Source of the DNA: Rhodovulum robiginosum
GTDB taxonomy: Bacteria; Pseudomonadota; Alphaproteobacteria; Rhodobacterales; Rhodobacteraceae
Direction of reading: 5' to 3'
Assembly: GCF_003944755.1 (NCBI RefSeq)
Contig: NZ_RWGU01000051.1
Span: forward strand, 248,001-312,000
DNA: 64,000 nt
Shown here: piece by piece, positions 32,702 to 62,094 of the stretch
How positions within the stretch are numbered: position 1 is the first letter of the stretch
Layout of the letters: each line of letters starts with the position of its first letter
Notes under the pieces: model-generated
Database searches by the model: none
What the model was told of the DNA's origin: nothing
The model's input: the letters and a program-made list of their open reading frames with translations, nothing else
Translations under genes and position numbers: made by a program

Positions 32702-35700
32702 CTATCCGCGCCTGAGGTCGAGCGTGAAGGGGAAGGCCGGGTGGACGGCGCGGAAGGCGGGCATCGTCGCGCCGGGCGTGTGGCCGCCTGCCTCGAACCG
32801 CGCGATTCGGCGGCCCTCGGCCTCCAGCGCGTTGATGGGGCGGTCGTCATGGGCCCGCCCGCCGGGATGGACGACATGGTAGGTGCACCCGCCCACCGAC
32901 CGCCCCGCGTGCCGGTCGAAAAGGTCGAAGACCAGCGGCCCGTGCGCCGCGATGGTGGGGTGCATCGCCGACCACGGCTGCCACGAGCGGAACCGGATGC
33001 CGGCCACGTGGCGGTCCGCGTCCGGCACCAGCGGCACGGCGATGCCGTTGCAGGTGAGGGTATATCGCTCGGGGTCATGGCCTGTCAGCGCGACCTCGAT
33101 CCGCTCGACCGAGCTGTCGACATAGCGCGCGGTGCCGCCGGCGCCGGGCTCTTCGCCCAGCGTCAGCCATGGCTCGATGGCGTTGCGCAGCTCGATACCC
33201 ACTCCGGCCACTTCGGTGCGGCCCGCCAACGGGAAGCGGAAATCGAACTGGGCCTGGAACCAGCCGGGGTCAAAGGCGATGCCGTGGGCGCGCGAGAGAT
33301 CGTCGAGTACCGTCTTGAAATCCGCCCAGACATGGGCTGGCAGCAGGAACCGGTCGTGCAGCGCCGTGCCCCACCCCTGCATCTCGTCGCAATAGGGGTG
33401 GTCCCAGAACCACGACAAGAGCCCGCGCAGCACCAGCGCCTGGGCCATGCTCATCTGCCAATGCGGCGGCATCTCGAAGCCGCGGAACTCGACCAGGCCC
33501 AGCCGCCCGGTGGGACCGTCGGGCGAAAAGAGCTTGTCGATGCAGATCTCGGCGCGGTGGGTGTTGCCCGACATGTCGGTCAACAGGTGCCGGAACAGCC
33601 GGTCGACGAGCCAGGGCCGGTAGGTGCCTTCGCCGGTCAGCCGGTCGAGCTCGGCCATGGCGATCTCCATTTCGTAGATCGCCTCGGGGCGCCCCTCGTC
33701 GAAGCGGGGGGCCTGGCTGGTGGGGCCGATGAAGGTGCCCGAGAACAGGTAGGAAAGCGACGGGTGCGCCTGCCAGTAGCGGATGACCGAGGCCAGCAGG
33801 TCGGGCCGGCGCAGGAACGGGCTGTCGGCCGGCGTCGCGCCGCCCACCACGATATGGTTGCCGCCGCCCGACCCGGTGAGCCGCCCGTCGATCATGAAGC
33901 TGACGCTGTCGAGCCCGCATTGCCGGGCCTCTTCGTACAGCGCGGCGGTGATTTCGCGCATCTCCGCCCAGTTGCCGGCGGGATGGATGTTGACCTCGAT
34001 CACGCCGGGGTCTGGGGTGACGCGGATGACGTTGATCCGCGCGTCGCGGGGCGGCTCGTATCCTTCGTTGCGGATCGGCACGCCCATCTCGTGGGCGGTT
34101 TCCTCGACCGCGCCGAGAAGGTCGAGATATTCCTCGGCCGATCCCGTGGGCGGGTAGAAGACATGGAGGATGCCGTCGCGCGGCTCGACCGCCAGCGCGG
34201 TACGCACCGCCCCGTCGGGGGTGGTGAAGGTGGTGCCGCCCGACACCCAGTCCTGCGCGTGCGGGTGGTGGCCCAGCACGTCTTCGGCGGACATGTGATC
34301 TGCGGTGTCGGGGGCGGGGTCGGTGCGGGGCTGCGGCACCTGGCGCGTGGGCAGGGGGCCCGCAGGCGACATCGGATCGCGCTGAAACTGCTCGGGGCTG
34401 TCGCCCAGCCAGTTGAGCGAGCCGAGCGGCAGGCGAAAGCCCACGGGGCTGTCGCCGGGCACCGAAAAGAGGCGGCCGCGGCGCGTCGACCATTTCTCGG
34501 TCTTCCAGCGCAGGCGGCGGCTGCCGGTGGCCTGGCTCTGGGCCAGCTGGATCGGGATCACGTAGCCCGTAGGGTTTTCGAACCCACGGTTGAACACGCG
34601 GGCCAGGCGCGCCCGTTCCTGGGGATCATCCAGCTTGCTGTCTTCGGGCGTCACGTTCTGCGGCAGCAGCGCCTCGCGCCCGATATATTCCATCGGGTCC
34701 TCATAGACGGGCTGGGCGAAATCGTCTTCGAGCCCCAGCTTTTTCGCAACCGATCGGCAAAACGCCCCGGCGGTCTCGTGCGTGGCCTCGCCCGGCCCCT
34801 CCCGCGCGATCAGGTCGGACGACGACCAGAGCGGCTGGCCGTCGCCGCGCCAGAGCAGCGAATAGGCCCAGCGCGGCAGCTGTTCGCCGGGGTACCATTT
34901 GCCCTGGCCGTGGTGCAGCACGCCATGGGGCGCAAAGCGGGCCTGCAGCCTGCGGATCAGTGCGTCGGCAAAGTGGCGCTTGGTCGGGCCCACGGCGTCG
35001 ACCGTCCATTCCTCGGCGTCCCGGTCGGTGGCCGAGACGAAGGTAGGCTCGCCGCCCATGGTCAGGCGCATGTCCTGGGCCGCGATGCGGTCGTCGACCG
35101 CCTGGCCCGCGCGGTCGACCTCGGCCCACTGCACGGGGGTCAGCGGGCGGGTGACGCGGGGCGGTTCCGTGATGCGCGCCACCGACATCTCGAACTCGAA
35201 GCCGACCTCGGCCACGTCATGGGCGCCGGTGATCGGCGCGGCGCTGCCGGGCTCGGGCGTGCAGGCCAGCGGGATATGGCCCTCGCCCGCGAACAGGCCC
35301 GAGGTCGGGTCGAGCCCGACCCAGCCGGCGCCGGGCAGGTAGACCTCGGCCCAGGCGTGCAGGTCGGTGAAATCGGTCTCGGGGCCCGAGGGGCCGCCGA
35401 CGGCCTTCTGGTCGGCGGCCAGCTGGATCAGGTAGCCCGACACGAAGCGGGCGGCATAGCCGAACTGGCGCAGCAGCGCGACCAGCAGCCAGCCGGAATC
35501 GCGGCAAGAGCCCAGCGCCTTGTCGATGGTCTCGGTCGGTGTCTGGACGCCGGGTTCCATCCGCACGGTATAGGCGATGGCGTCCTGCACATACTGGTTG
35601 AGCGCCACCAGCCAGTCGATCGTCGTGCCCTGGGGCCGCGGCGCGCCGCGCACGAAATCGTCGAACCGCGGACTGGTGTCGATGGTCTTGAGATAGGGGC

Positions 35701-36043
35701 GCAGATCCTCGAGCAGCCCCTCGTCGTAGCGAAACGGCACCTCCTGCGCGGCGTCTTCGAGGAAAAAGTCGAAGGGGTTGATCGCGACCAGATCGGCCAG
35801 AAGGTCGACCGTCACATCCAGCCGATGAACCTTTTCGGGAAACACCAGCCGCGCCTGCCAGTTGGCGAAGGTGTCCTGTTGCCAGTTGATGAAATGGCCC
35901 TCGGGCTCGATCTTGAGGCTGTAGCTGAGAATCGGCGTGCGGGCATGCGGCGCGGGGCGCAGGCGCACCACATGCGGCCCGAGACCGATCAACCGGTCAT
36001 AGGTGTAGCTCGTGCGGTGAGTCAGGGCGACCGTGATGCTCAT
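32702..36043 (-). CDS. Transglutaminase-like protein with DUF2126 (Anbu-locus protein)
   Basis: A 1113-residue protein. Residues about 1-90 form a bacterial transglutaminase N-terminal domain. A papain-fold transglutaminase core follows, with its Cys in ALGSCRDSGWLL (about 178) and His/Asp in TDLHAWAEVYLPGAGWVGLD. The remaining 800 residues are DUF2126, with GEPTFVS, GQGKWYPGEQLPRW, GSGGGNHIVVGG and TGHNPERY-like segments; this part resembles a glutamine-synthetase-type ligase fold. ATG 36043 matches the family start. Such proteins accompany ATP-grasp, alpha-E and Anbu genes, which lie divergently 146 bp away. The predicted role is making or breaking peptide-like conjugates. Confidence 0.92.
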   Translation of the reverse strand: MSITVALTHRTSYTYDRLIGLGPHVVRLRPAPHARTPILSYSLKIEPEGHFINWQQDTFANWQARLVFPEKVHRLDVTVDLLADLVAINPFDFFLEDAAQEVPFRYDEGLLEDLRPYLKTIDTSPRFDDFVRGAPRPQGTTIDWLVALNQYVQDAIAYTVRMEPGVQTPTETIDKALGSCRDSGWLLVALLRQFGYAARFVSGYLIQLAADQKAVGGPSGPETDFTDLHAWAEVYLPGAGWVGLDPTSGLFAGEGHIPLACTPEPGSAAPITGAHDVAEVGFEFEMSVARITEPPRVTRPLTPVQWAEVDRAGQAVDDRIAAQDMRLTMGGEPTFVSATDRDAEEWTVDAVGPTKRHFADALIRRLQARFAPHGVLHHGQGKWYPGEQLPRWAYSLLWRGDGQPLWSSSDLIAREGPGEATHETAGAFCRSVAKKLGLEDDFAQPVYEDPMEYIGREALLPQNVTPEDSKLDDPQERARLARVFNRGFENPTGYVIPIQLAQSQATGSRRLRWKTEKWSTRRGRLFSVPGDSPVGFRLPLGSLNWLGDSPEQFQRDPMSPAGPLPTRQVPQPRTDPAPDTADHMSAEDVLGHHPHAQDWVSGGTTFTTPDGAVRTALAVEPRDGILHVFYPPTGSAEEYLDLLGAVEETAHEMGVPIRNEGYEPPRDARINVIRVTPDPGVIEVNIHPAGNWAEMREITAALYEEARQCGLDSVSFMIDGRLTGSGGGNHIVVGGATPADSPFLRRPDLLASVIRYWQAHPSLSYLFSGTFIGPTSQAPRFDEGRPEAIYEMEIAMAELDRLTGEGTYRPWLVDRLFRHLLTDMSGNTHRAEICIDKLFSPDGPTGRLGLVEFRGFEMPPHWQMSMAQALVLRGLLSWFWDHPYCDEMQGWGTALHDRFLLPAHVWADFKTVLDDLSRAHGIAFDPGWFQAQFDFRFPLAGRTEVAGVGIELRNAIEPWLTLGEEPGAGGTARYVDSSVERIEVALTGHDPERYTLTCNGIAVPLVPDADRHVAGIRFRSWQPWSAMHPTIAAHGPLVFDLFDRHAGRSVGGCTYHVVHPGGRAHDDRPINALEAEGRRIARFEAGGHTPGATMPAFRAVHPAFPFTLDLRRG

Positions 36044-36189
36044 GAATTCTCGGATTGCCTTGTGTTTGTGCATACGAGGCCAGATCAAGGCGTTTTCTGC
36101 AAGGCGAATAAGCCTTAAAACCTTGGCCATACCGCTTATTGCCTTCCCTGCACGGAATTGCCACGCTCCATAGTCGAAAGGGCCAATTA

Positions 36190-37608
36190 ATGTTCAACGA
36201 GATGCTGAAGGGCGGCGATGTCCGGCCCGAATACAGGATCATCGCCGATTGGGTGGAGCGCGAGGGGATCGAGGCGCTGTTGTCCAAGCGCGAAGAGGCG
36301 GAGTCGCTGTTCCGGAGAATCGGCATTACCTTCGCCGTCTACGGCGAGGGCGGCGACCCCGACCGGCTGATCCCGTTCGACATGGTGCCCCGCGTCTTCG
36401 GCGCGTCGGAATGGGACATGATCGAGCGGGGCTCGATCCAGCGGGCCGATGCGTTGAACGCTTTTCTGCGCGACATCTACGGGCCGCGCGAGATCGTCAA
36501 GGCGGGCATCGTGCCGCTGCCGATGATCGAGGGCAACGACGCCTACGAACCCGTGGTCGAGGGCTACACGCCCCCGCGGGGCATCTATTCGCATGTCGTG
36601 GGCGTCGACCTGGTGCGCGTCTCCGAGTCCGAGATGTACGTGCTGGAGGACAATTGCCGCACGCCATCGGGCGTGTCCTACGTGCTGCAGAACCGCGAGG
36701 TGATGAGCCGGCTTTTCCCCGAGCTTTTCAGCGACAGCGTGATCCGCCCCGTGGATGGCTACGGCGACATGCTGGCCGAGGCGATGCAGTCGGTCGCGCC
36801 GCCGATGTGCGAGGGCGAACCGACCCTCGCGCTGCTGACGCCGGGCCACTACAACTCGGCCTATTTCGAGCATTCCTTCCTGGCCGACCAGATGGGGATC
36901 GAGCTGGTCGAGGGGCCGGACCTGTTCGTCGTGGATGACCGCGTCTACATGCGCACCACCCACGGGCCCGAGCGGGTGGACGTGATCTATCGGCGGATCG
37001 ACGATTCCTTTCTCGACCCGCAGGTGTTCCGGCCCGACAGCCTGCTGGGCGTGCCGGGCATCATCGGCGCGATGAAGGCCGGCGGCGTGACCATCGTCAA
37101 CGCGCCCGGCGCGGGCGTCGCCGACGACAAGGCGATCTATACCTACGTGCCCGAGATGATCCGGTTCTACCTCGGCGAAGAACCGGTCCTGTCGAACGTG
37201 CCCACCTGGCGCTGTTCCGAGACGGACGATCTGAAATACGTGCTGGAGCATCTGCACGAACTGGTGGTCAAGGAGGTGCACGGGTCGGGCGGCTACGGCA
37301 TGCTGGTCGGGCCCGCCTCGACCAAGGCCGAGATCGAGGCCTATGCCGCGCGGCTGAAGGCCGACCCGGACGGCTTTATCGCCCAGCCGACGCTGGCGCT
37401 GTCGGCCGCGCCGATCCTGTCCGAGGAAGGCCTCGCGCCACGCCATGTCGACCTGCGCCCCTTCGTGATTTCCGGCAAGACCACGCGGCTGATCCCCTCG
37501 GGGCTGACGCGGGTGGCGCTGCGCGAGGGATCGCTCGTCGTCAATTCCAGCCAGGGCGGCGGGGTCAAGGACACCTGGGTCCTTAGCGAAGGGGGCTCTG
37601 ATGCTTAG
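36190..37608 (+). CDS. Circularly permuted type 2 ATP-grasp protein (DUF404/DUF407 family)
   Basis: A 472-residue amidoligase-fold protein. Typical segments are FNEMLKGGDVRPEY at the start, YVLEDNCRTPSGVSYVLQNRE (the permuted ATP-grasp metal/nucleotide region), PGAGVADDKAIYTYVPEMI, and VVKEVHGSGGYGMLVGP near the nucleotide lysine. ATG 36190 follows AAAGGG and matches the family start. The 3' end overlaps the alpha-E gene by 8 bp. The family is predicted to form amide bonds using ATP; no substrate is established. Confidence 0.94.
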   Translation: MFNEMLKGGDVRPEYRIIADWVEREGIEALLSKREEAESLFRRIGITFAVYGEGGDPDRLIPFDMVPRVFGASEWDMIERGSIQRADALNAFLRDIYGPREIVKAGIVPLPMIEGNDAYEPVVEGYTPPRGIYSHVVGVDLVRVSESEMYVLEDNCRTPSGVSYVLQNREVMSRLFPELFSDSVIRPVDGYGDMLAEAMQSVAPPMCEGEPTLALLTPGHYNSAYFEHSFLADQMGIELVEGPDLFVVDDRVYMRTTHGPERVDVIYRRIDDSFLDPQVFRPDSLLGVPGIIGAMKAGGVTIVNAPGAGVADDKAIYTYVPEMIRFYLGEEPVLSNVPTWRCSETDDLKYVLEHLHELVVKEVHGSGGYGMLVGPASTKAEIEAYAARLKADPDGFIAQPTLALSAAPILSEEGLAPRHVDLRPFVISGKTTRLIPSGLTRVALREGSLVVNSSQGGGVKDTWVLSEGGSDA

Positions 37609-44502: not shown

Positions 44503-44803
44503 TCCCCGGAGAGCTCTTCGCCGCCGAGGGCACGCTGACGCTGAACGCCGACCGTGCGCCGATCACGCTGATGGTGGCGAATACCGGCGACCGGCCGGTG
44601 CAGGTCGGCAGCCATTACCATTTCGCCGAGTCCAATTCCGCGCTCGACTTCGACCGCGCCGCGGCGCGCGGGATGCGCCTGGATATCGCCGCGGGCACCG
44701 CGGTGCGGTTCGAGCCGGGGCAGCGGCGCGAGGTGCAGCTGATCCCGATCGCGGGCGCGCGGCGCGTCTATGGCTTCAACCAGCAGGTGATGGGGGAGCT
44801 TTG

Positions 44804-44804
<1 letters not shown>
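44499..44804 (+). CDS. ureB: Urease beta subunit
   Basis: A 101-residue UreB starting [19 protein letters not shown] with the family motifs [19 protein letters not shown] and [19 protein letters not shown] 44499 overlaps the stop of the 54-aa gene by four bases; its TGA overlaps the ureC ATG. Structural subunit of the urease trimer. Confidence 0.98.
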
Positions 44805-46513
<1,709 letters not shown>

Positions 46514-48029: not shown

Positions 48030-48649
48030 CTTCCCCCAACGGCCCCCTTCGCGTGGGCATCGGCGGCCCGGTGGGCGCCGGCAAGACGACGCTGACCGCC
48101 CAGCTTGCCCGCACCCTCGCGCCCCGCTTTTCGCTCGCCGTGGTGACGAACGACATCTACACGCAAGAGGATGCCGAGGCGCTGACGCGGATGCAGGTGC
48201 TGCCCTCGGACCGCATCAAGGGTGTCGAGACCGGCGGCTGCCCCCACACCGCGATCCGGGAGGATGCCTCGATCAACCTCGCCGCCATCGCAGAGCTGAC
48301 GGCGGCCATCCCCGACCTCGAGCTGGTGCTGATCGAGTCGGGCGGCGACAACCTGTCGGCGACGTTCAGCCCGGAACTGGCCGATATCACGCTCTACGTC
48401 ATCGACGTGGCCGCGGGTGAGGAAATCCCCCGCAAGGGGGGGCCGGCGATCACCAGGTCGGACCTGCTGATCATCAACAAGACCGACCTGGCGCCCTATG
48501 TCGGCGCCGATCTGTCGGTGATGGAGCGCGACGCCACGCGGATGCGCGGCGGGCGGCCCTTCCTCTTCGCCTCGCTTCGCAACGGCGAGGGCGTGGCAGA
48601 GATCGCCGCCCAACTGTGCGAGTTGGGCGGGCTGGTCGAGCGCGCCTAG
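48026..48649 (+). CDS. ureG: Urease accessory GTPase UreG
   Basis: A 207-residue SIMIBI-class GTPase. P-loop [13 protein letters not shown] near residue 12, the nickel-binding CPH in [33 protein letters not shown] and the guanine motif NKTD ([12 protein letters not shown]). It drives GTP-dependent nickel insertion. Its TAG overlaps the stop of the convergent gghA gene in the shared CTAG, leaving no room for a separate terminator. Confidence 0.98.
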
Positions 48650-51024
48650 CCGACGGGCAGGTCGCGGGTAAATGTCAGCGCCATGGAATCGCGCAGCGTG
48701 ATCGGCCCGCCGTTGTAATCGCCGCCGATCCCCGGCGTGCGCAGCGCCAGCCGCCAGCCGAACCCGTCGAGCCCCGCAATCGGCAGGGTGAGGGGGTCGA
48801 CCTCGTCGGTCGGGCCGCCCTCCATATGCGCGATGGTGAAACTCTGCCCGCCCTCGGGCGCATTGCGCAGCGCGGTGAACAGGGTGCGCCCGCCCAGGGG
48901 GCGGATGTAGTCGAAATGATCGCTCGGCCCGAAGTTTCCGCGCAGCCACGGGTTGGCCCGGCGGAACCGGCGCAGCGCCAGCATGAAATCGGTCTGCGCG
49001 GGGTCGAGCGCGCTGATCGAGTTGGCGACATTGCAATAGGCGTGCATGTCGTCCATCCAGGCCCGTGCGATCTGTTTCAGGACCGGCACGGTAAAGCGCG
49101 GGGGGCCGGCCAGCGGCGGCTCGACCGCGTTCAGCAGCGTGGCGATGGTGTCGAGATCGTAATCGGTCACCTCGACCAGCGCCGGCAGGAACTCGAAGAA
49201 CCGGGCGAGGTCTTCGCGCGTGTCAAAGCCCAGCTCTTTCAGCCGGGTGAAATGTCCGGGCACCGAATAGCTGTATTCGTCGACCTGCCATTTCAGGCTG
49301 ATCGCCTCTTCGGCCACGACCTTGACCCCGTAAGAGTCATCCTGGTTGCGGACAAAGCCCCAGCTGGCCCGCGACGTGGCGTTTAGGAAATCCATCGGCA
49401 CGCCGGGGAACACGGCGTAGGTCAGCATCGACACCGCGGGGTTGTCATAGGCCTTGTCCAACAGCTCCATCCGCGTCTCGCCGAGGCGCGTGTTGATGTT
49501 GAGCTTGGGGTTGACCTGGGTGCCGCGTCTGAGCGTGTCATGGTTGGCGGTGCCCGAGATCCAGTTTTCGCCCATCTCCAGCATTTCGCGGATGCGCCAG
49601 AACTTGGACAGCCAGAAGGTGTAGAGAAACGGCGTGTTGTGGGCAAAGGTCAGCGGCCCCCACTGGAACACGTCGTCGTCGCGCTGGGCCTCGATCACCG
49701 CGCGGTAGCTCGAGCTCAGTTCCCAATCCTCGTCGGGCCAGGGACGGCCATCCTCGAAGATCATCCAGGGGCGGTAGCGCGTCCCGGCGACCTGCTGTTC
49801 CACGTCGGCCATTTCCTGAAGGTAGTCGTCGTCATGGCGCAGATGCTGCAGGGACGGATCCCACCACTTGAAATCCTGCGCGCCGTCGATGCGCACGCCG
49901 TCGGCGCCGAAGTCGACCTTGCGCCGCTGCATCTCTAGCAGGATCGCCCGCACCGCGGGATTTCGATAATCGAGGTTCTGGCCGTACATGTTCGGCCCGG
50001 CGAAGAAATGCGGGTTGAGCGCTTCGAGCCCCTGATTGTCGGAATGCCCGAAGACCACGTCGAAGATCAGCATCTTGGGCTTGCCGGGGAAGGTGTGCAG
50101 CACCGCGGCGAGATCGACCAACTCGTCCGGGCGACCGGTCTCGGTCAGCACGGGGTTCACCGTGGCCATGCCCGAGATCACCACGTCGTAGCCCCAATTG
50201 GTGGTGTCGGGACGGGTCAGCGTGATGTCGACCTCGCCCTCCGAGACCGGGTTTTCCTGCCAGAAGGCGGGGCCGGTCTCGTAAACCGTCGTGGGCTCGA
50301 CCGGCAAGAGCTGCACCGCGTCGTAGCCCAGAAACAGCGCGTCGGCGGGTTCCAGTCTCAGTCCGTGCTCGACGCGTTCGGCCAGGCGGTGGTACTGGCG
50401 GGTGAGGCTGGCCAGCGTGCCGCCGGCGGTGGCGGTTGGCACATGGATTTGCAGGATGTTGGTGGGCGGGCCGAACTTGTGCGGCGCCGCGCCGGCGAAG
50501 GCGCGGAAATAGTCGGCGTCGGACCGGGCGGCCTGCATCGCGTCGACGTCGTAGATCTCGGCCGGGGCGAAGGCGCCGAAGGGCAGCGACATCGCCAGCG
50601 GGTCGAAGATGCGGTGCCAGGCGCCGTGGCCGTCGCGCCAGGCCAGTGCGTAGAAATCGCCCAGCCGGTCGCGCCTGCCCGCGCCGAGCCCCGCGACCGC
50701 GGCGAAGGTGAACCCCTCGTAGCGGGCGACGGGCAGATACACTTTCTCGAACCGCTGCTCCTGGTGGGAAATCGTAAGGTCCAGCGCGCCCGTCGGGGCC
50801 AGCACCTCGAGAAACACGTCGCCCTCGGGCACGCGCTGATCCTGCAATTCCGGCGTCCAGAAGCCGAAGGTCACGTGGTCTTCGGCCACCTGTGCACCCA
50901 GCCGGCGGGCGATGGCGCGGCTGGCCTCGAACTGACTGGAGGCGGTGGTGTGGATTTCGGCGCACCAGTCGGCGAGGGCCTGCGCCTTGTCGTCGCGCGG
51001 GATGGCGCGGTCTGTCAGGGACAT
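48646..51024 (-). CDS. gghA: Glucosylglycerol hydrolase (GghA, GH13-like)
   Basis: A 792-residue cytosolic glycosidase resembling cyanobacterial GghA, which splits glucosylglycerol when salt stress ends. GH13-type active-site regions are visible: [11 protein letters not shown] (region I), [13 protein letters not shown] (nucleophile Asp), [14 protein letters not shown] (acid/base Glu) and [11 protein letters not shown] (region IV). No signal peptide. ATG 51024 follows AAGGAATCGA. The neighbouring GgpS, GpsA and HAD genes support the substrate; sequence alone would also fit other GH13-like enzymes. Confidence 0.85.
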
Positions 51025-51109
51025 TCGATTCCTTGTCTTGAACGAGATGACCGGCCAGCGTCGCATGGTGCGCGCCGACCGGTCGGGAAGGGCTGGACGA
51101 CGGGCGCCT

Positions 51110-52006
51110 TTATTCGGCGGCCATCGCCGTGGCGGGTGTGGCGAACTCGGTCAGCACCTGGCGATAGCTCGGGTGCTGGGCGGCCAGCGACAGCGTGGCG
51201 CGCAGCATACCCTCTTTCGAGCCGCAATCGAAGCGCTCGCCCGAGAAGGCGAAACCGGCCAGGCCCAGCGGCCCGGCGTCTCGTGCGATCGCGTCGGTAA
51301 GCTGGATCTCGTCATTGGCGCCGGGGGGCTGGCTGGCCAGCGTGTCAAAGATCGCCCCGTCGAGGATATAGCGGCCGACCACGGCCTTGAGCGACGGCGC
51401 GTCCTCGGCGGCGGGCTTTTCGACCATGCCGCTGGCATGGACCAGCCGGCCGTCATGCCGTTTCGGCACCAGCACACCATAGCGCGACACGGTCTCGCGG
51501 GTGACGTCCATGGTGGCCACCATGTGCCCCGCGTCGCAGGCCTGGTAGGCGGCGATCATCTCGCTGAGGCAGCCGGGGCCGGACAGGATCAGGTCGTCGG
51601 GCAGCAGCACCGCCACGGGCCCGGGCAGCACATGCGGCCGCGCGCAGAGCACCGCGTGACCGAGGCCAAGCGGTTCGTGCTGCATGACGAATTCCACCTC
51701 GTGCTCATCCTCGTCGAGCGCCGCGGCGTGAAGCTCGCGGGCGATATGGCTCTTGCCGCGGGCGTGCAGCGTCTCGATCAGGTCGTGATCGGCGCGGACA
51801 TGGCGTTCGATGGCCGATTTCGACGGGTGGCTGACGAAGACCATCCGCTCGACCCCGGCATCGCGCGCCTCGTCGATGGCGTACTGGATGAGCGGCGTGT
51901 CGATGACCGGCAACAGCTCTTTCGGGGTGGCCTTGGTGGCGGGCAGAAAACGGGTGCCCAGCCCGGCGACCGGAAAGATGGCGGTTCTGACGGTGGCAGA
52001 GGTCAT
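51110..52006 (-). CDS. galU: UTP--glucose-1-phosphate uridylyltransferase
   Basis: A 298-residue nucleotidyltransferase with FPVAGLGTRFLPATKATPKELLPV, where the GLGTRFLP loop and catalytic Lys are typical of GalU, then HEPLGLGHAVLCA, VLLPDDLIL and GYILDGAIF-type segments. It makes UDP-glucose. ATG 52006 has AAGGAG 12 bases upstream. It lies 85 bp upstream of gghA on the same strand. Known GgpS enzymes use ADP-glucose, so its presence here is a hint that this pathway may use UDP-glucose, or that it serves another polymer. Confidence 0.93.
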   Translation of the reverse strand: MTSATVRTAIFPVAGLGTRFLPATKATPKELLPVIDTPLIQYAIDEARDAGVERMVFVSHPSKSAIERHVRADHDLIETLHARGKSHIARELHAAALDEDEHEVEFVMQHEPLGLGHAVLCARPHVLPGPVAVLLPDDLILSGPGCLSEMIAAYQACDAGHMVATMDVTRETVSRYGVLVPKRHDGRLVHASGMVEKPAAEDAPSLKAVVGRYILDGAIFDTLASQPPGANDEIQLTDAIARDAGPLGLAGFAFSGERFDCGSKEGMLRATLSLAAQHPSYRQVLTEFATPATAMAAE

Positions 52007-52054
52007 GCGGATCCTACTCCTTAAACTGGTGCAGCACGTAGCTGTCGAGAAGAT

Positions 52055-52069
52055 TGCTGCGGTGCAGTA
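52055..52069. promoter_or_regulatory. TGCTGCGGTGCAGTA, near-palindrome matching CTGC-N3-GCAG
   Basis: It lies about 50 bp before the galU ATG and is identical in 12 of 15 bases to the perfect palindrome at 46541-46555. It could be a PhaR-like or other dimeric regulator site, linking galU to carbon-storage state. Confidence 0.4.
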
Positions 52070-52325
52070 AACTTCGTTATGTGAATATATTTTAGGGACT
52101 TGGCCCGCCAAATCAATTCGGTCGGCGAAAACCGGCGGGTCGGGCGAGGCCGGTGTCGACCGATCGGGGAGCGGCGGCCTGTTGCGCGCACCTAGCAGCC
52201 AGAACCACTATAAATATTTGTAAATCATTATAAAAAGCCGCAAGTCGCCGCGCCGGGCCTGACTGTCGCGATTCAGCGATAGCGGTGTCGACAACCAAAT
52301 CCTCGCTTTTCTGGGCCTTGAGGGG

Positions 52326-52354
52326 TTGCACAATTTTTGCGCAGTTCGTATTTT
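52326..52354 (+). promoter_or_regulatory. Candidate sigma-70 promoter of the gpsA-HAD-ggpS operon
   Basis: TTGCAC (52326-52331), a 17-bp spacer and TATTTT (52349-52354) sit in an AT-rich island about 225 bp before gpsA. It is the best -35/-10 match I found in the window. Confidence 0.55.
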
Positions 52355-52580
52355 TGCTAAGCACTATGAAATAATTGAACGGCCAAATCACCGGCCACGG
52401 ACGCCGCGCTGCGGCACTGCCTTGAAAGACCGGCCGCATGGCGTACCTTATGTGCAGAGCGCTTCGTGCGTCGGCGGGTCAGGGCAGGCCGATGACCCGG
52501 CACGGGGCAGGCGCGGTATGGGTGACGCCACGTCCCACCGCGCGGCCGCAATGTCCTTCGGCCGATAAGCAGAGCCATAG

Positions 52581-53726
52581 ATGCCCGTGAGCGGAATGAA
52601 AGACAGCTATTCGCAATCCTCCAATCCCCAATCCAGCCCTTACCCCACCGTCGCCGTGATCGGTGCCGGGTCGTGGGGGACGGCGCTGGCCAGCGTGCTG
52701 GCGCGTAGCGGGCGAAACGTCACGCTCTGGGCGCGACGGCCCGACCTGGCCGCCGCGATCTCGCGCACCGGGCAGAACCCGGATTACCTGCCGGATATCG
52801 ACCTGCCGCCGGGGATCATGGCGACCGCCGACCTGCAAGAGGCGCTGGACGGCGCCGGTGCGGTGTTGCTGGTCACGCCTTCGGCAACGTTGCGCGACAT
52901 CTGCCGGGCCGCGGCGCCGGTGCTGCCCAAGGGCATCCCGCTTGCGCTCTGTGCCAAGGGGATCGAGCGGGGCACCGGGCTGTTGCTGTCCGAGGTGGCG
53001 TCGGAAGAGTTGCCCGATCATCCCATCGGTGCCGTCTCCGGCCCGACATTCGCGCGGGAAACCGCCCTGGGCCATCCCACCGCGGCGACCGTCGCGTTTC
53101 CGTTTTCCTATGCCGACCGGTTGACGCCCGGGGCCAGCCCGGCCGCGCGGCTGGCCATGTCGCTGAGCGGCGGCGGCTTTCGCCCCTATATCTCGGACGA
53201 CCTGGTGGGCGTCGAGGTGGGCGGCGCGGTGAAGAACGTGATCGCCATCGCCTGCGGGATGATGTCGGGCGCCGGCTTTGCCGAGAACACCCGCGCGGCC
53301 CTGATCGCCCGCGGCATGGACGAGATGAAGGCGCTGGCCGAGGCGCTGGGCGGCAAGCGTGAAACCGTCACCGGACTGTCGGGCGCGGGCGATCTGACCC
53401 TGACCTGTTCGTCCACCACGTCGCGCAACATGTCGCTGGGGATGCAACTGGGCCGCGGCCTGGCCCGCGAGGCGTGTTTCGATGGAAAGCCCGTCGTCGT
53501 CGAGGGCGAGGTCAACGCCATCTCGGTGATCGACCTGGCGCGGCGGATCGGCGTGCCGATGCCCATTTGCGAGACGGTCAACGCCGTTCTGCACGAGGGC
53601 GCCGACCTGAACCAGAGCTTTTCCGACCTCTGGGTGCGGCCCATCGAGGCCGAGCCGCGGGCGCTCGACATCTCGCTCGACCATCCCGAACCCAACGCCT
53701 TGCTGCCCTTCGGAGCCCCGGTATGA
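52581..53726 (+). CDS. gpsA: Glycerol-3-phosphate dehydrogenase [NAD(P)+]
   Basis: A 381-residue GpsA that reduces dihydroxyacetone phosphate to sn-glycerol-3-phosphate. NAD(P) motif VIGAGSWGTALASVLARSG starts near residue 25; GPTFARE, the catalytic-Lys segment VGGAVKNVIAIACGMM and GLSGAGDLTLTCSS follow. It is about 50 residues longer than usual, with an extra Ser-rich N-terminus and a 40-residue C-terminal tail. ATG 52596 is a possible later start. Its stop overlaps the HAD gene ATG. In this operon it would make the acceptor for GgpS, and is likely a second, dedicated copy. Confidence 0.94.
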   Translation: MPVSGMKDSYSQSSNPQSSPYPTVAVIGAGSWGTALASVLARSGRNVTLWARRPDLAAAISRTGQNPDYLPDIDLPPGIMATADLQEALDGAGAVLLVTPSATLRDICRAAAPVLPKGIPLALCAKGIERGTGLLLSEVASEELPDHPIGAVSGPTFARETALGHPTAATVAFPFSYADRLTPGASPAARLAMSLSGGGFRPYISDDLVGVEVGGAVKNVIAIACGMMSGAGFAENTRAALIARGMDEMKALAEALGGKRETVTGLSGAGDLTLTCSSTTSRNMSLGMQLGRGLAREACFDGKPVVVEGEVNAISVIDLARRIGVPMPICETVNAVLHEGADLNQSFSDLWVRPIEAEPRALDISLDHPEPNALLPFGAPV

Positions 53727-54505
53727 CGCTTGCCGAAACCCTTTTGCCGCCGCTGTCCGAGCGGCGTTTCGTGTTGGCCACCGACCTGGACGGTACGTTC
53801 CTGGGCGGCACCCAGGACGACCGCCGCCGCCTCTACGACTGGATCGACGATCAGCGTACAACCATAGGGTTGATCTTCGTCACCGGGCGCGATCCCGATT
53901 TCATCGTCGAGCTGTGCGAGGAACGTGGCCTGCCATGGCCGGAATACGTGGTTTGCGACGTCGGCACGTCGATTGCCGAGGTATCGCACGACGGCACCAT
54001 CACGCCGATCCCCACGCTTGAGGCCGATATCGCCCGGCGCTGGGGCGGCAAGGGCGACGCGGTGCGCGCGGCGCTTGACGGCCATCCGGGGCTGACGCTG
54101 CAACCCACCGCGTTCCGCCACAGGGTCAGCTATGATCTGGAGGCCGACGCCTTTTGCGACAGCGCCAAGGGCAAGGTCGAGGAACTGGACCTCGACTGGC
54201 TGATCTCGGACAACCGGTTTTTCGACGTGTTGCCTCAGGGCGTGTCCAAGGGCCCGTCGCTGAAACGGCTCATCGCACATCTGGGAGTGCCCGAAGGCCG
54301 GGTGCTGGCCGCGGGCGACACGCTCAACGACCTGTCGATGCTCGAATGCGGGCTGAACGCGGTGGCCGTCGGCAATTCCGAGGCGCCGCTGATCGAACGG
54401 GTGGCGCCCCTCGGGCATGTGCACAAAGCCCGCGCCCATGGCGCGGCAGGGATCATGGAGGCGATCGACGCCTTTTCCCTTCACGACATTCCGAAAGGAG
54501 GCTGA
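53723..54505 (+). CDS. HAD-IIB phosphatase, probable glucosylglycerol-phosphate phosphatase
   Basis: A 260-residue HAD hydrolase of the sucrose-phosphatase/trehalose-phosphatase type. Motif I is ATDLDGTFLGG (nucleophile and acid Asp), motif II lies at IFVTGR, the Lys is in QGVSKGPSLKRL and motif IV is AAGDTLNDLSML. It overlaps gpsA (ATGA) and ends one base before ggpS. Position makes dephosphorylation of glucosylglycerol-phosphate its likely job, the role of GgpP in cyanobacteria; the substrate is inferred. Confidence 0.85.
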   Translation: MTLAETLLPPLSERRFVLATDLDGTFLGGTQDDRRRLYDWIDDQRTTIGLIFVTGRDPDFIVELCEERGLPWPEYVVCDVGTSIAEVSHDGTITPIPTLEADIARRWGGKGDAVRAALDGHPGLTLQPTAFRHRVSYDLEADAFCDSAKGKVEELDLDWLISDNRFFDVLPQGVSKGPSLKRLIAHLGVPEGRVLAAGDTLNDLSMLECGLNAVAVGNSEAPLIERVAPLGHVHKARAHGAAGIMEAIDAFSLHDIPKGG

Positions 54506-54506
54506 T

Positions 54507-56009
54507 ATGCCGTCCAATCTGGTGATCGTCTACCACCGCCAGCCCTACGAAGAGGTGGAGGTCGACGGCAAGACCGAGTTCCGCGAAAACAAGAGCCCCA
54601 ACGGCATCGTGCCGACGCTGAAAAGCTTTTTCGGCCGGTTCGAAAGCGGCGCCTGGGTCGCGTGGAAACAGGCCGACGACCCGGCCAACCCCGAGTTCGA
54701 CCGGGTGATCGAGATCGAGGATGCCTACGGCAAATACACGGTTTCGCGCCTGCCCCTGACCGCCGAGCAGGTGAGCAGCTTTTACCACGTCACTTCGAAA
54801 GAGGCATTCTGGCCGATCCTGCATTCCTTCAAGGAGCGGTACAATTACGACCCCGTCGACTGGCCGACCTTTCGTGAAGTGAACTGGGCCTTTGCCGAGG
54901 CCGCCGCGAACGAGGCCGCCGAGGGCGCCGTGGTCTGGGTGCATGACTACAACCTGTGGCTGGTGCCGGGCTATCTGCGGACCATGCGGCCAGATCTGAA
55001 GATCAGCTTTTTCCACCACACGCCGTTCCCCTCGGCCGACATGTTCAACGTGCTGCCCTGGCGCAAGGAAATCCTCGAAAGCCTGCTGACCTGCGACGTG
55101 GTGGGCTTTCACATCCCGCGCTATGCCAACAACTTCGTCTCGGCCGCGCGCAGCCTGCTGGATGTCGCCGTGACCCGGCGCGAACCCGTTGCGCCCGACC
55201 TGGCGTCGGAGGTCACCGCGCTGTCGGAACGCAGCGTGCCGACCGAGCTGGATTTCGACGGGCACAAGATCATCGTGCAATCCTCGCCGGTCGGGGTCGA
55301 TACCGACTATGTCGAAAGCATCGCCGCGCGCCCCGAAACGGCCAAGCGCGCCGCCGAAATCCGCGCCGACCTGGGCGGGGCGCAAATGATCCTGTCGGTC
55401 GGGCGGACCGATTACACCAAGGGCGGGATCGAGCAATTGCTGTCTTACGAGCGCCTTTTGGAAGCGCGCCCCGACCTGCGCGGCAAGCTGCGGCTGATGC
55501 ATGTCTCGGTGCCGGCCAACCGCAACATGACGGTCTACGAGAACATCCAGACCGATATCGAACAGCTGGCCGGGCGCATCAACGGCCATTTCGGCAGCCT
55601 GGAATGGCAGCCCATCGCGCTGATCTCTCGCGCGATCCCGTTCGACGATCTGGTCGCCTACTACCGCGCCGCCGACGTGGCCTGGATCACACCGCTGGCC
55701 GACGGGATGAACCTGGTCTGCAAGGAGTTCTGCGCGGCCCGTACCGATGGCGACGGCGTGCTGGTGCTGTCGGAATTCGCAGGCGCGGCGGTCGAGATGG
55801 GGTCGGCCCTGCTGACCAACCCGTTCTCGAACCGCTCGATGGACAGCGCGATTGCACAGGCGCTGGACATGGAAGAGGCCGAGCGCCGCGACCGTATGGC
55901 CGCCCTGCACGAGATCGTGCGCCGCCACGACGTCCGGTTCTGGGCCGAAGATCAGATGCGTGCGCTGGCACCGGCCAAGACCGAGGCCGAGACCGTGCCC
56001 GCCGCCTGA
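54507..56009 (+). CDS. ggpS: Glucosylglycerol-phosphate synthase (GT20)
   Basis: A 500-residue retaining glycosyltransferase related to trehalose-phosphate synthase. Its N-terminus (SNLVIVYHRQPYEEVEVDGK, NKSPNGIVPTLKSFF, WVAWKQ) is characteristic of GgpS rather than OtsA. Further on, VHDYNLWLVPGYLR, FFHHTPFPSADMFNVLPWR, ILSVGRTDYTKG and PLADGMNLVCKEF are the sugar-nucleotide and acceptor motifs of GT20. AAAGGAGG precedes the ATG. It joins activated glucose and glycerol-3-phosphate to make the osmolyte precursor. It is the last gene before a strong terminator. Confidence 0.93.
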   Translation: MPSNLVIVYHRQPYEEVEVDGKTEFRENKSPNGIVPTLKSFFGRFESGAWVAWKQADDPANPEFDRVIEIEDAYGKYTVSRLPLTAEQVSSFYHVTSKEAFWPILHSFKERYNYDPVDWPTFREVNWAFAEAAANEAAEGAVVWVHDYNLWLVPGYLRTMRPDLKISFFHHTPFPSADMFNVLPWRKEILESLLTCDVVGFHIPRYANNFVSAARSLLDVAVTRREPVAPDLASEVTALSERSVPTELDFDGHKIIVQSSPVGVDTDYVESIAARPETAKRAAEIRADLGGAQMILSVGRTDYTKGGIEQLLSYERLLEARPDLRGKLRLMHVSVPANRNMTVYENIQTDIEQLAGRINGHFGSLEWQPIALISRAIPFDDLVAYYRAADVAWITPLADGMNLVCKEFCAARTDGDGVLVLSEFAGAAVEMGSALLTNPFSNRSMDSAIAQALDMEEAERRDRMAALHEIVRRHDVRFWAEDQMRALAPAKTEAETVPAA

Positions 56010-56052
56010 CGCTCCCGGCGCGCGCCGCCGGAGCGGACCTATGCACAGATCG

Positions 56053-56084
56053 ACGCCGCCCAATTTGGTTGGGCGGTGTTTTGC
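56053..56084 (+). terminator. Rho-independent terminator after ggpS
   Basis: Stem CCGCCCAA (56056-56063) pairs with TTGGGCGG (56069-56076), extended by A-C-G against T-G-T, and is followed by TTTTG. It ends the gpsA-HAD-ggpS operon. Confidence 0.88.
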
Positions 56085-60911: not shown

Positions 60912-61982
60912 TCAATGGCTGAGCGCGCCCTCGTATTGCAGGATCGCCGCCTCCGAGGCATCGAGATTGCGCCGGGCGAAATCACCATAGCAATAGGGAT
61001 CGTGCGCCAGCATCGGGAATACCTCGATCAGCGCGTCGCGCTGGTCGCCGGGCACCGTGTCGAGCGAGGTGTTGGCCGGGTGGAAGCTTTCGGTTTCGAC
61101 CCCGTTGGCCCAGACGATCTGGTGACGTTCCAGCATCAGATGCACATAGGTGACCTCGCTCAGCGTGTGGTCGACCAGGATCGTGCGGTCGTTCAGCAGA
61201 TCCCCCGCCGCGACCAGCACCTCGGGCGTCTGGAACAGCACCTCCGCCGCGCGGCCCCGCACCAGAACCCGGTGCTGGGGCGACACGATCAGGTCGCCCT
61301 CGGGCCGCTCGGCGCCCAGCGCGCCCGACCGGATGCGGATCGGGCGAAGCTGCGGCATGGCGTATAGCCGGGCGCCGCTCATCCGGCGCTGGCCGACCCA
61401 AAGGATCTCCTGCACGCCGTCGTCCTTGGTCTGGATACGGTCGCCCGGGGCCAGCGTCTCGACCGGCACGGGCCCCTCGGGCGTGTCGATCCGGGTGCCC
61501 GCGGCAAAGCAGATCACACCGGGCGGCACGTCGCCTATCTGATGCACCGGCGGCGCTTCGGCAATCTCGCGCACCACCCACAGCTCGACCCCCGCCGGCG
61601 GCATCTCGCCGAGAAACATCAACAGCGGCGGGCGCCCCGCCCCGGTGGGGATCTGGGTGCCGGTGTAGCTGGACATGCCGTCGGTGACGACGAAGGCCCG
61701 GTCGCGCAGAGGCCCGCTCAGCGCCGCGGTTTCCTCCGGTCCCGGATCGATGGCCATTCCCACCAGGCGCCGCACCGACCGTGCGGCGCGCTGGCGCAAC
61801 TCCTCTGTCCCGGACGCATTGCCGAGTGGCAGGATGTCCGCTGGCCCGTCGACGCGCGTGGCCTGCCCCGACCACGCCCATGACGCACCCACGCGCAACG
61901 CCTCGACCGGCGCCGCCGCGACCCCATCCACTTCTGTTTGCGCCCAGGAAACGACAAACGTGCCGCGAAAGCCCGCTTTCAT
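60912..61982 (-). CDS. Hint (Hedgehog/intein) domain-containing protein
   Basis: A 356-residue protein. Residues about 160-300 form a Hint domain: CFAAGTRIDTPEGPVPVETL with the Cys nucleophile, GDRIQTKDDGVQEILWVGQR, IVSPQHRVLVRG with its His, and ETVTYVHLML-type end. The N-terminal 150 residues (TFVVSWAQTEVDGV) have no recognised domain. Such proteins are frequent in Rhodobacterales and often exported, but self-splicing is not shown and no C-extein motif is clear. ATG 61982 is chosen as the first ATG; ribosome site weak. Confidence 0.85.
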   Translation of the reverse strand: MKAGFRGTFVVSWAQTEVDGVAAAPVEALRVGASWAWSGQATRVDGPADILPLGNASGTEELRQRAARSVRRLVGMAIDPGPEETAALSGPLRDRAFVVTDGMSSYTGTQIPTGAGRPPLLMFLGEMPPAGVELWVVREIAEAPPVHQIGDVPPGVICFAAGTRIDTPEGPVPVETLAPGDRIQTKDDGVQEILWVGQRRMSGARLYAMPQLRPIRIRSGALGAERPEGDLIVSPQHRVLVRGRAAEVLFQTPEVLVAAGDLLNDRTILVDHTLSEVTYVHLMLERHQIVWANGVETESFHPANTSLDTVPGDQRDALIEVFPMLAHDPYCYGDFARRNLDASEAAILQYEGALSH

Positions 61983-62094
61983 ACCTGTAGCCCGCCTCAA
62001 TTCGTTTTTTATTACGAAACGGTTAACACGCGAAGCTCATCCGGGAAAGAGGCAGGGGCGAGAAAGCGAATCGCGGCCAAAAATTGCGGGCAAA

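Follow-up and report, generated by a model that had tools for sequence, protein, structure and literature searches.

Does the stretch of Rhodovulum robiginosum DNA analyzed here (64,000 nucleotides, contig NZ_RWGU01000051.1, positions 248,001 to 312,000, hereafter the window) hold a locus for the synthesis and breakdown of the osmolyte glucosylglycerol (GG), and from which sugar donor would such a locus draw? The initial annotation, made from the letters alone, had proposed five genes for it, and all five were found where it had placed them and in the order it gave. We consider it quite probable that they constitute a GG osmolyte locus, for which the substrates, the control by salt and the action of the hydrolase GghA on GG are inferred. 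The genes and the region that divides them are as follows.

48646-51024, minus strand: gghA, a GHL5 glycoside hydrolase of 792 amino acids (aa) and probable GG hydrolase (Pfam GHL5)
51110-52006, minus strand: a galU-type nucleotidyltransferase paralogue of 298 aa (TIGR01099, below cut-off)
52007-52580, no strand: divergent intergenic region between galU and gpsA (gene order)
52581-53726, plus strand: a gpsA paralogue, encoding an NAD(P)H-dependent glycerol-3-phosphate dehydrogenase of 381 aa (NCBIfam GpsA subfamily)
53723-54505, plus strand: a HAD-IIB phosphatase of 260 aa, probably a GgpPS-type GG-phosphate phosphatase (Pfam S6PP, matches to fused GgpPS)
54507-56009, plus strand: ggpS, encoding a GG-phosphate synthase of family GT20 with 500 aa (TIGR02398, tree)

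The three plus-strand genes form a tight operon, with a 4-base overlap between gpsA and the HAD gene and a single base between the HAD stop codon and ggpS. On the minus strand, galU precedes gghA by 85 bases, and gghA and the convergent ureG (48649) overlap at their 3' ends. The starts of gghA, galU and ggpS were picked among in-frame codons, the mechanical open reading frames extending upstream to 51066, 52111 and 54417, respectively. The genome, that of a purple marine bacterium, is a 3.7-Mb assembly of 51 contigs with a completeness of 99.97%.

The product of ggpS could be a GG-phosphate synthase or a trehalose-phosphate synthase of the OtsA type. The protein, which is the sole GT20 match in the genome, scored 684.7 bits against the curated equivalog TIGR02398 for GG-phosphate synthase (cut-off 569), while it failed the OtsA model TIGR02400 with 421.7 bits (cut-off 564.85). 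When 50 GT20 proteins, none of them cyanobacterial or biochemically characterized, were placed in a tree, it fell into a clade of 26 rows together with fused GgpPS proteins (support 100/100), and the 24 OtsA-like rows lay outside; here the tree program flagged a meeting of long branches, involving seven OtsA-like rows and the GgpS clade. Grouping with OtsA, which the initial annotation had named as the outcome that would overturn its GgpS assignment, was not seen. K98 and N149 were found in 25/25 GgpS or GgpPS rows and replaced by N and H in 24/24 OtsA-like rows; further, where OtsA-like rows extend to the positions of Y9 and H10, which 12 of them do, they have S and N instead. Model score, tree and diagnostic residues thus support the assignment of the protein, at the level of sequence, as a GG-phosphate synthase and not an OtsA. 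Cyanobacterial GgpS and GghA were compared with it through curated models and published papers.

The surroundings of ggpS were compared across 80 loci, the best of 473 confirmed candidates from named records when ranked on similarity to the window GgpS; the sample is therefore biased toward relatives of the window, and some loci are cut by contig ends (e.g., L104, L109, L114, L115 and L135), so that absences are upper bounds. Three genome samples were also employed: 61 relatives and 398 genomes of the phylum, both including the window's own genome, and 49 alphaproteobacterial genomes with ggpS, which share at least four genomes with the other samples (R. marinum, R. kholense, R. visakhapatnamense and the genome of locus L084). 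The L084 record bears the name of an actinobacterium, Enemella evansiae, and appears to correspond to G017, a genome from the window's family; it is probably a mistitled or mixed assembly.

In all 80 loci, as in the 12 GgpS genomes among the 61 relatives (window included), an HAD gene lies immediately 5' of ggpS. The window protein is of the HAD-IIB, sucrose-phosphate phosphatase type (Pfam S6PP, 147.2 bits, cut-off 20.3). Family models for GG-phosphate phosphatase exist, and no such family, as would be expected of a cyanobacterial-type GgpP, was among its Pfam and NCBIfam matches at an E value of 0.001. Five GgpS proteins from other families of the phylum carry 255-325 residues ahead of their GT20 part, and the HAD protein matched this N-terminal part in all five (36-44% identity over 234-242 columns), which agrees with the phosphatase role first proposed for it. 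The HAD match was lacking in a sixth protein, from an alphaproteobacterium (L146), whose long upstream frame may be non-coding. Judged from these alignments, the HAD gene and ggpS are a GgpPS enzyme split over two genes. The fused GgpPS of Stenotrophomonas, Pseudomonas and Marinobacter, which occur with a GG phosphorylase, have the identical two domains in the identical order (PMC10873239); they are single proteins, whereas the window has two separate genes plus a GHL5 hydrolase. For heterotrophs that carry GgpPS, the same source reports no gghA homologues.

Both supply genes of the locus are second copies. The cluster GpsA passed the NCBIfam GpsA subfamily model and is 45% identical to a second GpsA encoded elsewhere in the genome (C11:19597-20562). 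Likewise, the cluster GalU is 46% identical to another copy (C11:116300-117142), which passed TIGR01099 with 338.1 bits (cut-off 326.8), while the cluster copy failed with 267.3 bits; we therefore regard it as a GalU-like paralogue of putative nucleotide specificity. Such diverged duplicates, present in addition to another copy of each gene, are consistent with a dedicated supply and fit the earlier proposal that the locus provides its own acceptor and donor. A gpsA at least 55% identical and no more than 4 kb upstream of ggpS was present in 70/80 loci and in 10 of the 12 GgpS relatives; a divergent galU was found in 20/80 loci and 3/12 relatives. Within the 49 ggpS genomes, this galU occurred in 6/9 with gghA and in 2/40 without it (p 0.00015), a co-occurrence that shared ancestry may explain. 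The two genes mostly are not neighbours in these genomes (loci L059-L108).

With respect to breakdown, GghA scored 782.6 bits against Pfam GHL5 (cut-off 23.7), the family of the cyanobacterial GghA, Slr1670, which supports the GghA-like hydrolase of the initial annotation. Slr1670 is reported to be needed for GG breakdown in Synechocystis and to have homologues in alphaproteobacteria (PMC5002435). Residues R378, D380, E424 and N494-H495-D496, which fit a GH13-like motif, are invariant in 19/19 sequences; D380, E424 and D496 are the putative catalytic ones. No relative of solved structure was found by sequence (phmmer). The predicted structure (mean pLDDT 71.7, pTM 0.74) drops below a pLDDT of 50 around residues 492-527, and active-site geometry is therefore not supported by the model; Foldseek matches, led by pullulanase and branching enzymes (2ya0, E 2.3e-16, TM 0.49 by query, rmsd 10.9), support only a GH13-like fold and nothing finer. 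Nine of the 61 relatives had GHL5, and all nine were among the 12 in which GgpS exceeded its cut-off (Fisher 1.3e-8, uncorrected for kinship), and the same was true for the four GHL5 genomes of the 398, again all among 12 with GgpS (Fisher 4.8e-7, likewise uncorrected; p 1.6e-5 after removal of the window's own genome). One genome without GgpS, G444, had a weak GHL5 match below cut-off (E 3.7e-4).

Taken in sequence, these activities would work as follows. Salt stress would induce transcription of the plus-strand operon; GpsA would convert dihydroxyacetone phosphate to glycerol 3-phosphate, which GgpS would condense with a nucleotide-activated glucose, perhaps UDP-glucose that the divergent GalU-type paralogue provides; removal of the phosphate by the HAD enzyme would yield GG; and the divergently read GghA would split GG into glucose and glycerol once salinity drops.

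As to the donor, Synechocystis GgpS is reported to depend on ADP-glucose, with UDP-glucose not accepted, and cyanobacterial GG synthesis to run on ADP-glucose (PMC6004087 and PMC4390839); for the window GgpS this donor is in doubt. A GlgC match (1e-60) was absent from 17 of the 49 alphaproteobacterial ggpS genomes, 11 of which have strain names and six are metagenome-assembled genomes, with completeness not given; of the possible sources of ADP-glucose, the scan covered glgC. In two genomes that are approximately 98-99% complete, G006 (R. marinum, also counted among the 17) and G026, GgpS was present and GlgC below cut-off or absent. Together with the divergent GalU paralogue in a quarter of the loci, the missing glgC makes UDP-glucose a reasonable guess. 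We therefore put forward, tentatively and at a little less than an even chance, that the alphaproteobacterial GgpS branch abandoned ADP-glucose for UDP-glucose (or the product of the GalU-like enzyme) and takes glycerol 3-phosphate from its own GpsA, which would uncouple GG from glycogen and the housekeeping pools, and that GghA was added in the subset with glycogen genes, returning GG to glucose. Two results speak against this proposal: the window's own genome encodes GlgC (490 bits), and the divergent galU does not follow the absence of glgC, which was missing in 2/8 genomes with galU and 15/41 without (p 0.70). The second runs contrary to the simplest version of the UDP-glucose proposal and holds its odds below one half. 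A substitution of GlgC by the galU near ggpS was accordingly rejected.

In the non-coding regions, the following candidate control elements were found.

52084-52116, minus strand: two overlapping promoter-like sites toward galU-gghA (consensus scan)
52207-52234, minus strand: a third promoter-like site toward galU-gghA (consensus scan)
52422-52449, plus strand: likely sigma-70-type promoter of gpsA-HAD-ggpS, TTGAAA-16-TACCTT (counterparts in relatives)
56052-56080, plus strand: likely terminator hairpin after ggpS (13-pair fold)

The initial annotation had given the operon its own promoter and terminator, and likely candidates for both are present, although the consensus scans returned neither of them, nor any other plus-strand promoter or terminator. 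With a consensus that was picked after inspecting five of the sequences, 13 of 73 upstream regions of relatives scored at least 10/12, whereas five sets of shuffled sequences gave 0 to 5 and the reverse strand 0/73; the counterparts keep the 16-base spacing. Facing galU, three promoter-like sites were found where 0.3 were expected. For the terminator candidate, the whole 46-base stretch folds with -25.7 kcal/mol (z -5.6); a four-T run at the hairpin base (56079-56082) lies partly within the predicted stem. The divergent region had also been called AT-rich: its AT content is indeed raised, but only moderately, with 42% for 52007-52640 compared to 31-37% for 1-kb windows across 50001-54000. No salt-specific operator was identified, and k-mers of 22 divergent regions were barely above shuffles. 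The idea of an operator common to the galU-gpsA regions was dropped; GCGGCA or its complement occurred in 21/22 of them, the best shuffled k-mer reaching 18, and in only 28/51 other upstream regions.

Several observations weigh against a GG osmolyte locus as we read it, most of them concerning GghA. GHL5 is missing in 40 of the 49 ggpS genomes, and gghA was near ggpS solely in the window, in G003 and, out of the 80 loci, in L060 (Phaeovulum vinaykumarii) and L128 (Thermohalobaculum xanthum). In addition, no more than 8 kb separate gghA from glgC in 6/9 gghA genomes of the 49, and its native setting may therefore be glycogen metabolism. As for GG itself, the genome encodes an ectoine synthase (ectoine genes are listed for Rhodovulum species in PMC7824335), so that GG would share its role with other solutes and may be a secondary one; and in Marinobacter salinexigens, which carries ggpPS, GG was reportedly undetected under salt (PMC10873239). 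The first of these concerns leads to the strongest competing explanation, namely that the operon makes GG while the GHL5 protein, placed here by chance, acts on glycogen or some other alpha-glucan. In its favour, gghA directly follows glgB in six genomes (G001, G005, G014, G015, G003 and P. vinaykumarii; glgB model-confirmed in three), stands at the end of a glgBCAX-malQ run on a plasmid of SC52, and is accompanied by glgC in all nine gghA genomes of the 49 (9/32 with glgC, 0/17 without); the Foldseek matches point the same way, although the model behind them is only moderate. What argues for a role in GG is that, among the 61 relatives, gghA was present in 9/10 genomes with both ggpS and glgC but in 0/14 with glgC alone and 0/2 with ggpS alone, and that the GHL5 protein Slr1670 serves GG breakdown in Synechocystis. 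We thus read GghA as a putative GG hydrolase retained where the glycogen pathway exists, and judge a chance neighbour from glucan metabolism to be unlikely, if still deserving of attention. In G003 and P. vinaykumarii, gpsA-HAD-ggpS-glgB-gghA run consecutively on one strand; the GHL5 proteins of such Rhodovulum and Phaeovulum glgB-gghA pairs are 72-76% identical to the window GghA, which differs in standing behind galU. In G051 (L182, 11606-13906), a gene for monovalent cation/proton antiporter subunit A adjoins gghA, which would suit salt stress.

The glycogen gene links, together with the lack of a salt-specific site in the regions above, would also suit a cluster that is active but not salt-regulated and serves carbon or redox overflow. 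We hold this to be improbable, as salt is reported to induce GgpS homologues in S. rhizophila and in Synechocystis (for the latter, PMC6753628) and the hosts in the locus list are mostly marine or saline, judged from their names. Least probable of all, to the point that we give it very little weight, is a GT20 enzyme whose acceptor and product are others than those assumed here, the glucoside being, e.g., trehalose phosphate or glucosylglycerate phosphate. Most GT20 enzymes are OtsA, the HAD protein has no GG-specific model and sucrose-phosphate phosphatase as its best Pfam match, and Dinoroseobacter shibae is cited (Kleist et al. 2017) as using glucosylglycerate as well as GG in PMC9062515; against this stand the TIGR02398 score, the tree and the diagnostic residues of GgpS, and the adjacent gpsA of 70/80 loci, which would be idle if the product were trehalose.

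We compared the locus with known systems. With the cyanobacterial one it shares the GgpS equivalog, a GHL5 hydrolase and the close placement of gghA and ggpS on opposite strands; it differs in the S6PP-type HAD gene adjacent to ggpS, in gpsA at the head of the operon and in a galU paralogue in place of glpK. PMC6753628 describes gghA adjoining ggpS on the opposite strand in Synechocystis and the co-localization of gghA, ggpS and glpK in GG-synthesizing strains, and a figure legend also places glpD and gpsA at this cluster. The claim that the package is more complete than the scattered cyanobacterial genes was therefore only partly right, as cyanobacteria also pair gghA with ggpS. Nor was there support for the package being unusual in an alphaproteobacterium, as had been supposed, since the gpsA-HAD-ggpS operon is common there. 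On plasmid pDSHI02 of D. shibae (DSHI_RS19325-19335), the three genes stand in the same order with 69, 59 and 69% identity and an annotated ggpS; galU and gghA were absent from the 17-kb stretch, the chromosome not having been searched. The shared operon, in a species cited as using GG, favours a GG locus in the window as well. On the same plasmid (L055, 9590-14400), the operon is followed by genes for a phospholipase D, a histidine kinase, a sigma factor, NepR and a response regulator, a general-stress-like set. The operon is likewise plasmid-borne in Falsirhodobacter algicola and Tistrella mobilis. In the open-access literature, as far as its text was accessible, we did not find a description of the combination of a GgpPS-type enzyme as two genes with GHL5 and dedicated GpsA and GalU copies. 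Overall, the reading of the initial annotation was partly supported: the enzyme families and the extra supply copies agree with it, while rarity among alphaproteobacteria and a merely scattered cyanobacterial arrangement found no support.

The window is thus one more, unusually compact, member of a widespread set of operons, in which the synthesis half is common and the news lies in the private supply enzymes and the possible change of donor. Although work on GG has so far concerned mainly cyanobacteria, besides a few gammaproteobacteria, its synthesis operon is widespread in marine alphaproteobacteria, plasmids included. If UDP-glucose were used, the ADP-glucose rule derived from Synechocystis GgpS would not cover the whole family, a clade with many members would be at hand for mapping the switch, and GG producers lacking an ADP-glucose supply would be easier to engineer. 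The patchy gghA, found only where ggpS and glgC coexist, would make an exchange of carbon between GG and glycogen testable in a genetically tractable group.

Regarding the flanks, the idea that the cluster had been inserted at a previously empty site was considered and dropped, as no such site was seen near ureG, a gene present in 14/16 genomes of the genus. The right-flank genes of the window (extensin-like, tyrA and hisC) were found in none of 10 stretches reaching 9.7-12.9 kb beyond ureG. Elsewhere in the window, a match to the Rfam family 5_ureB_sRNA (RF02514, 100.7 bits) at 44957-45244 on the minus strand lies opposite ureC (44801-46513, plus strand) and probably reflects conservation of the coding sequence and not a real antisense RNA. 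A transglutaminase-DUF2126 protein (32702-36130, minus strand) is encoded beside a circularly permuted ATP-grasp protein (36139-37608, plus strand), a pair that resembles a peptide-modifying system, and a Hint_2-domain protein of 362 aa is encoded at 60912-62000 on the minus strand.

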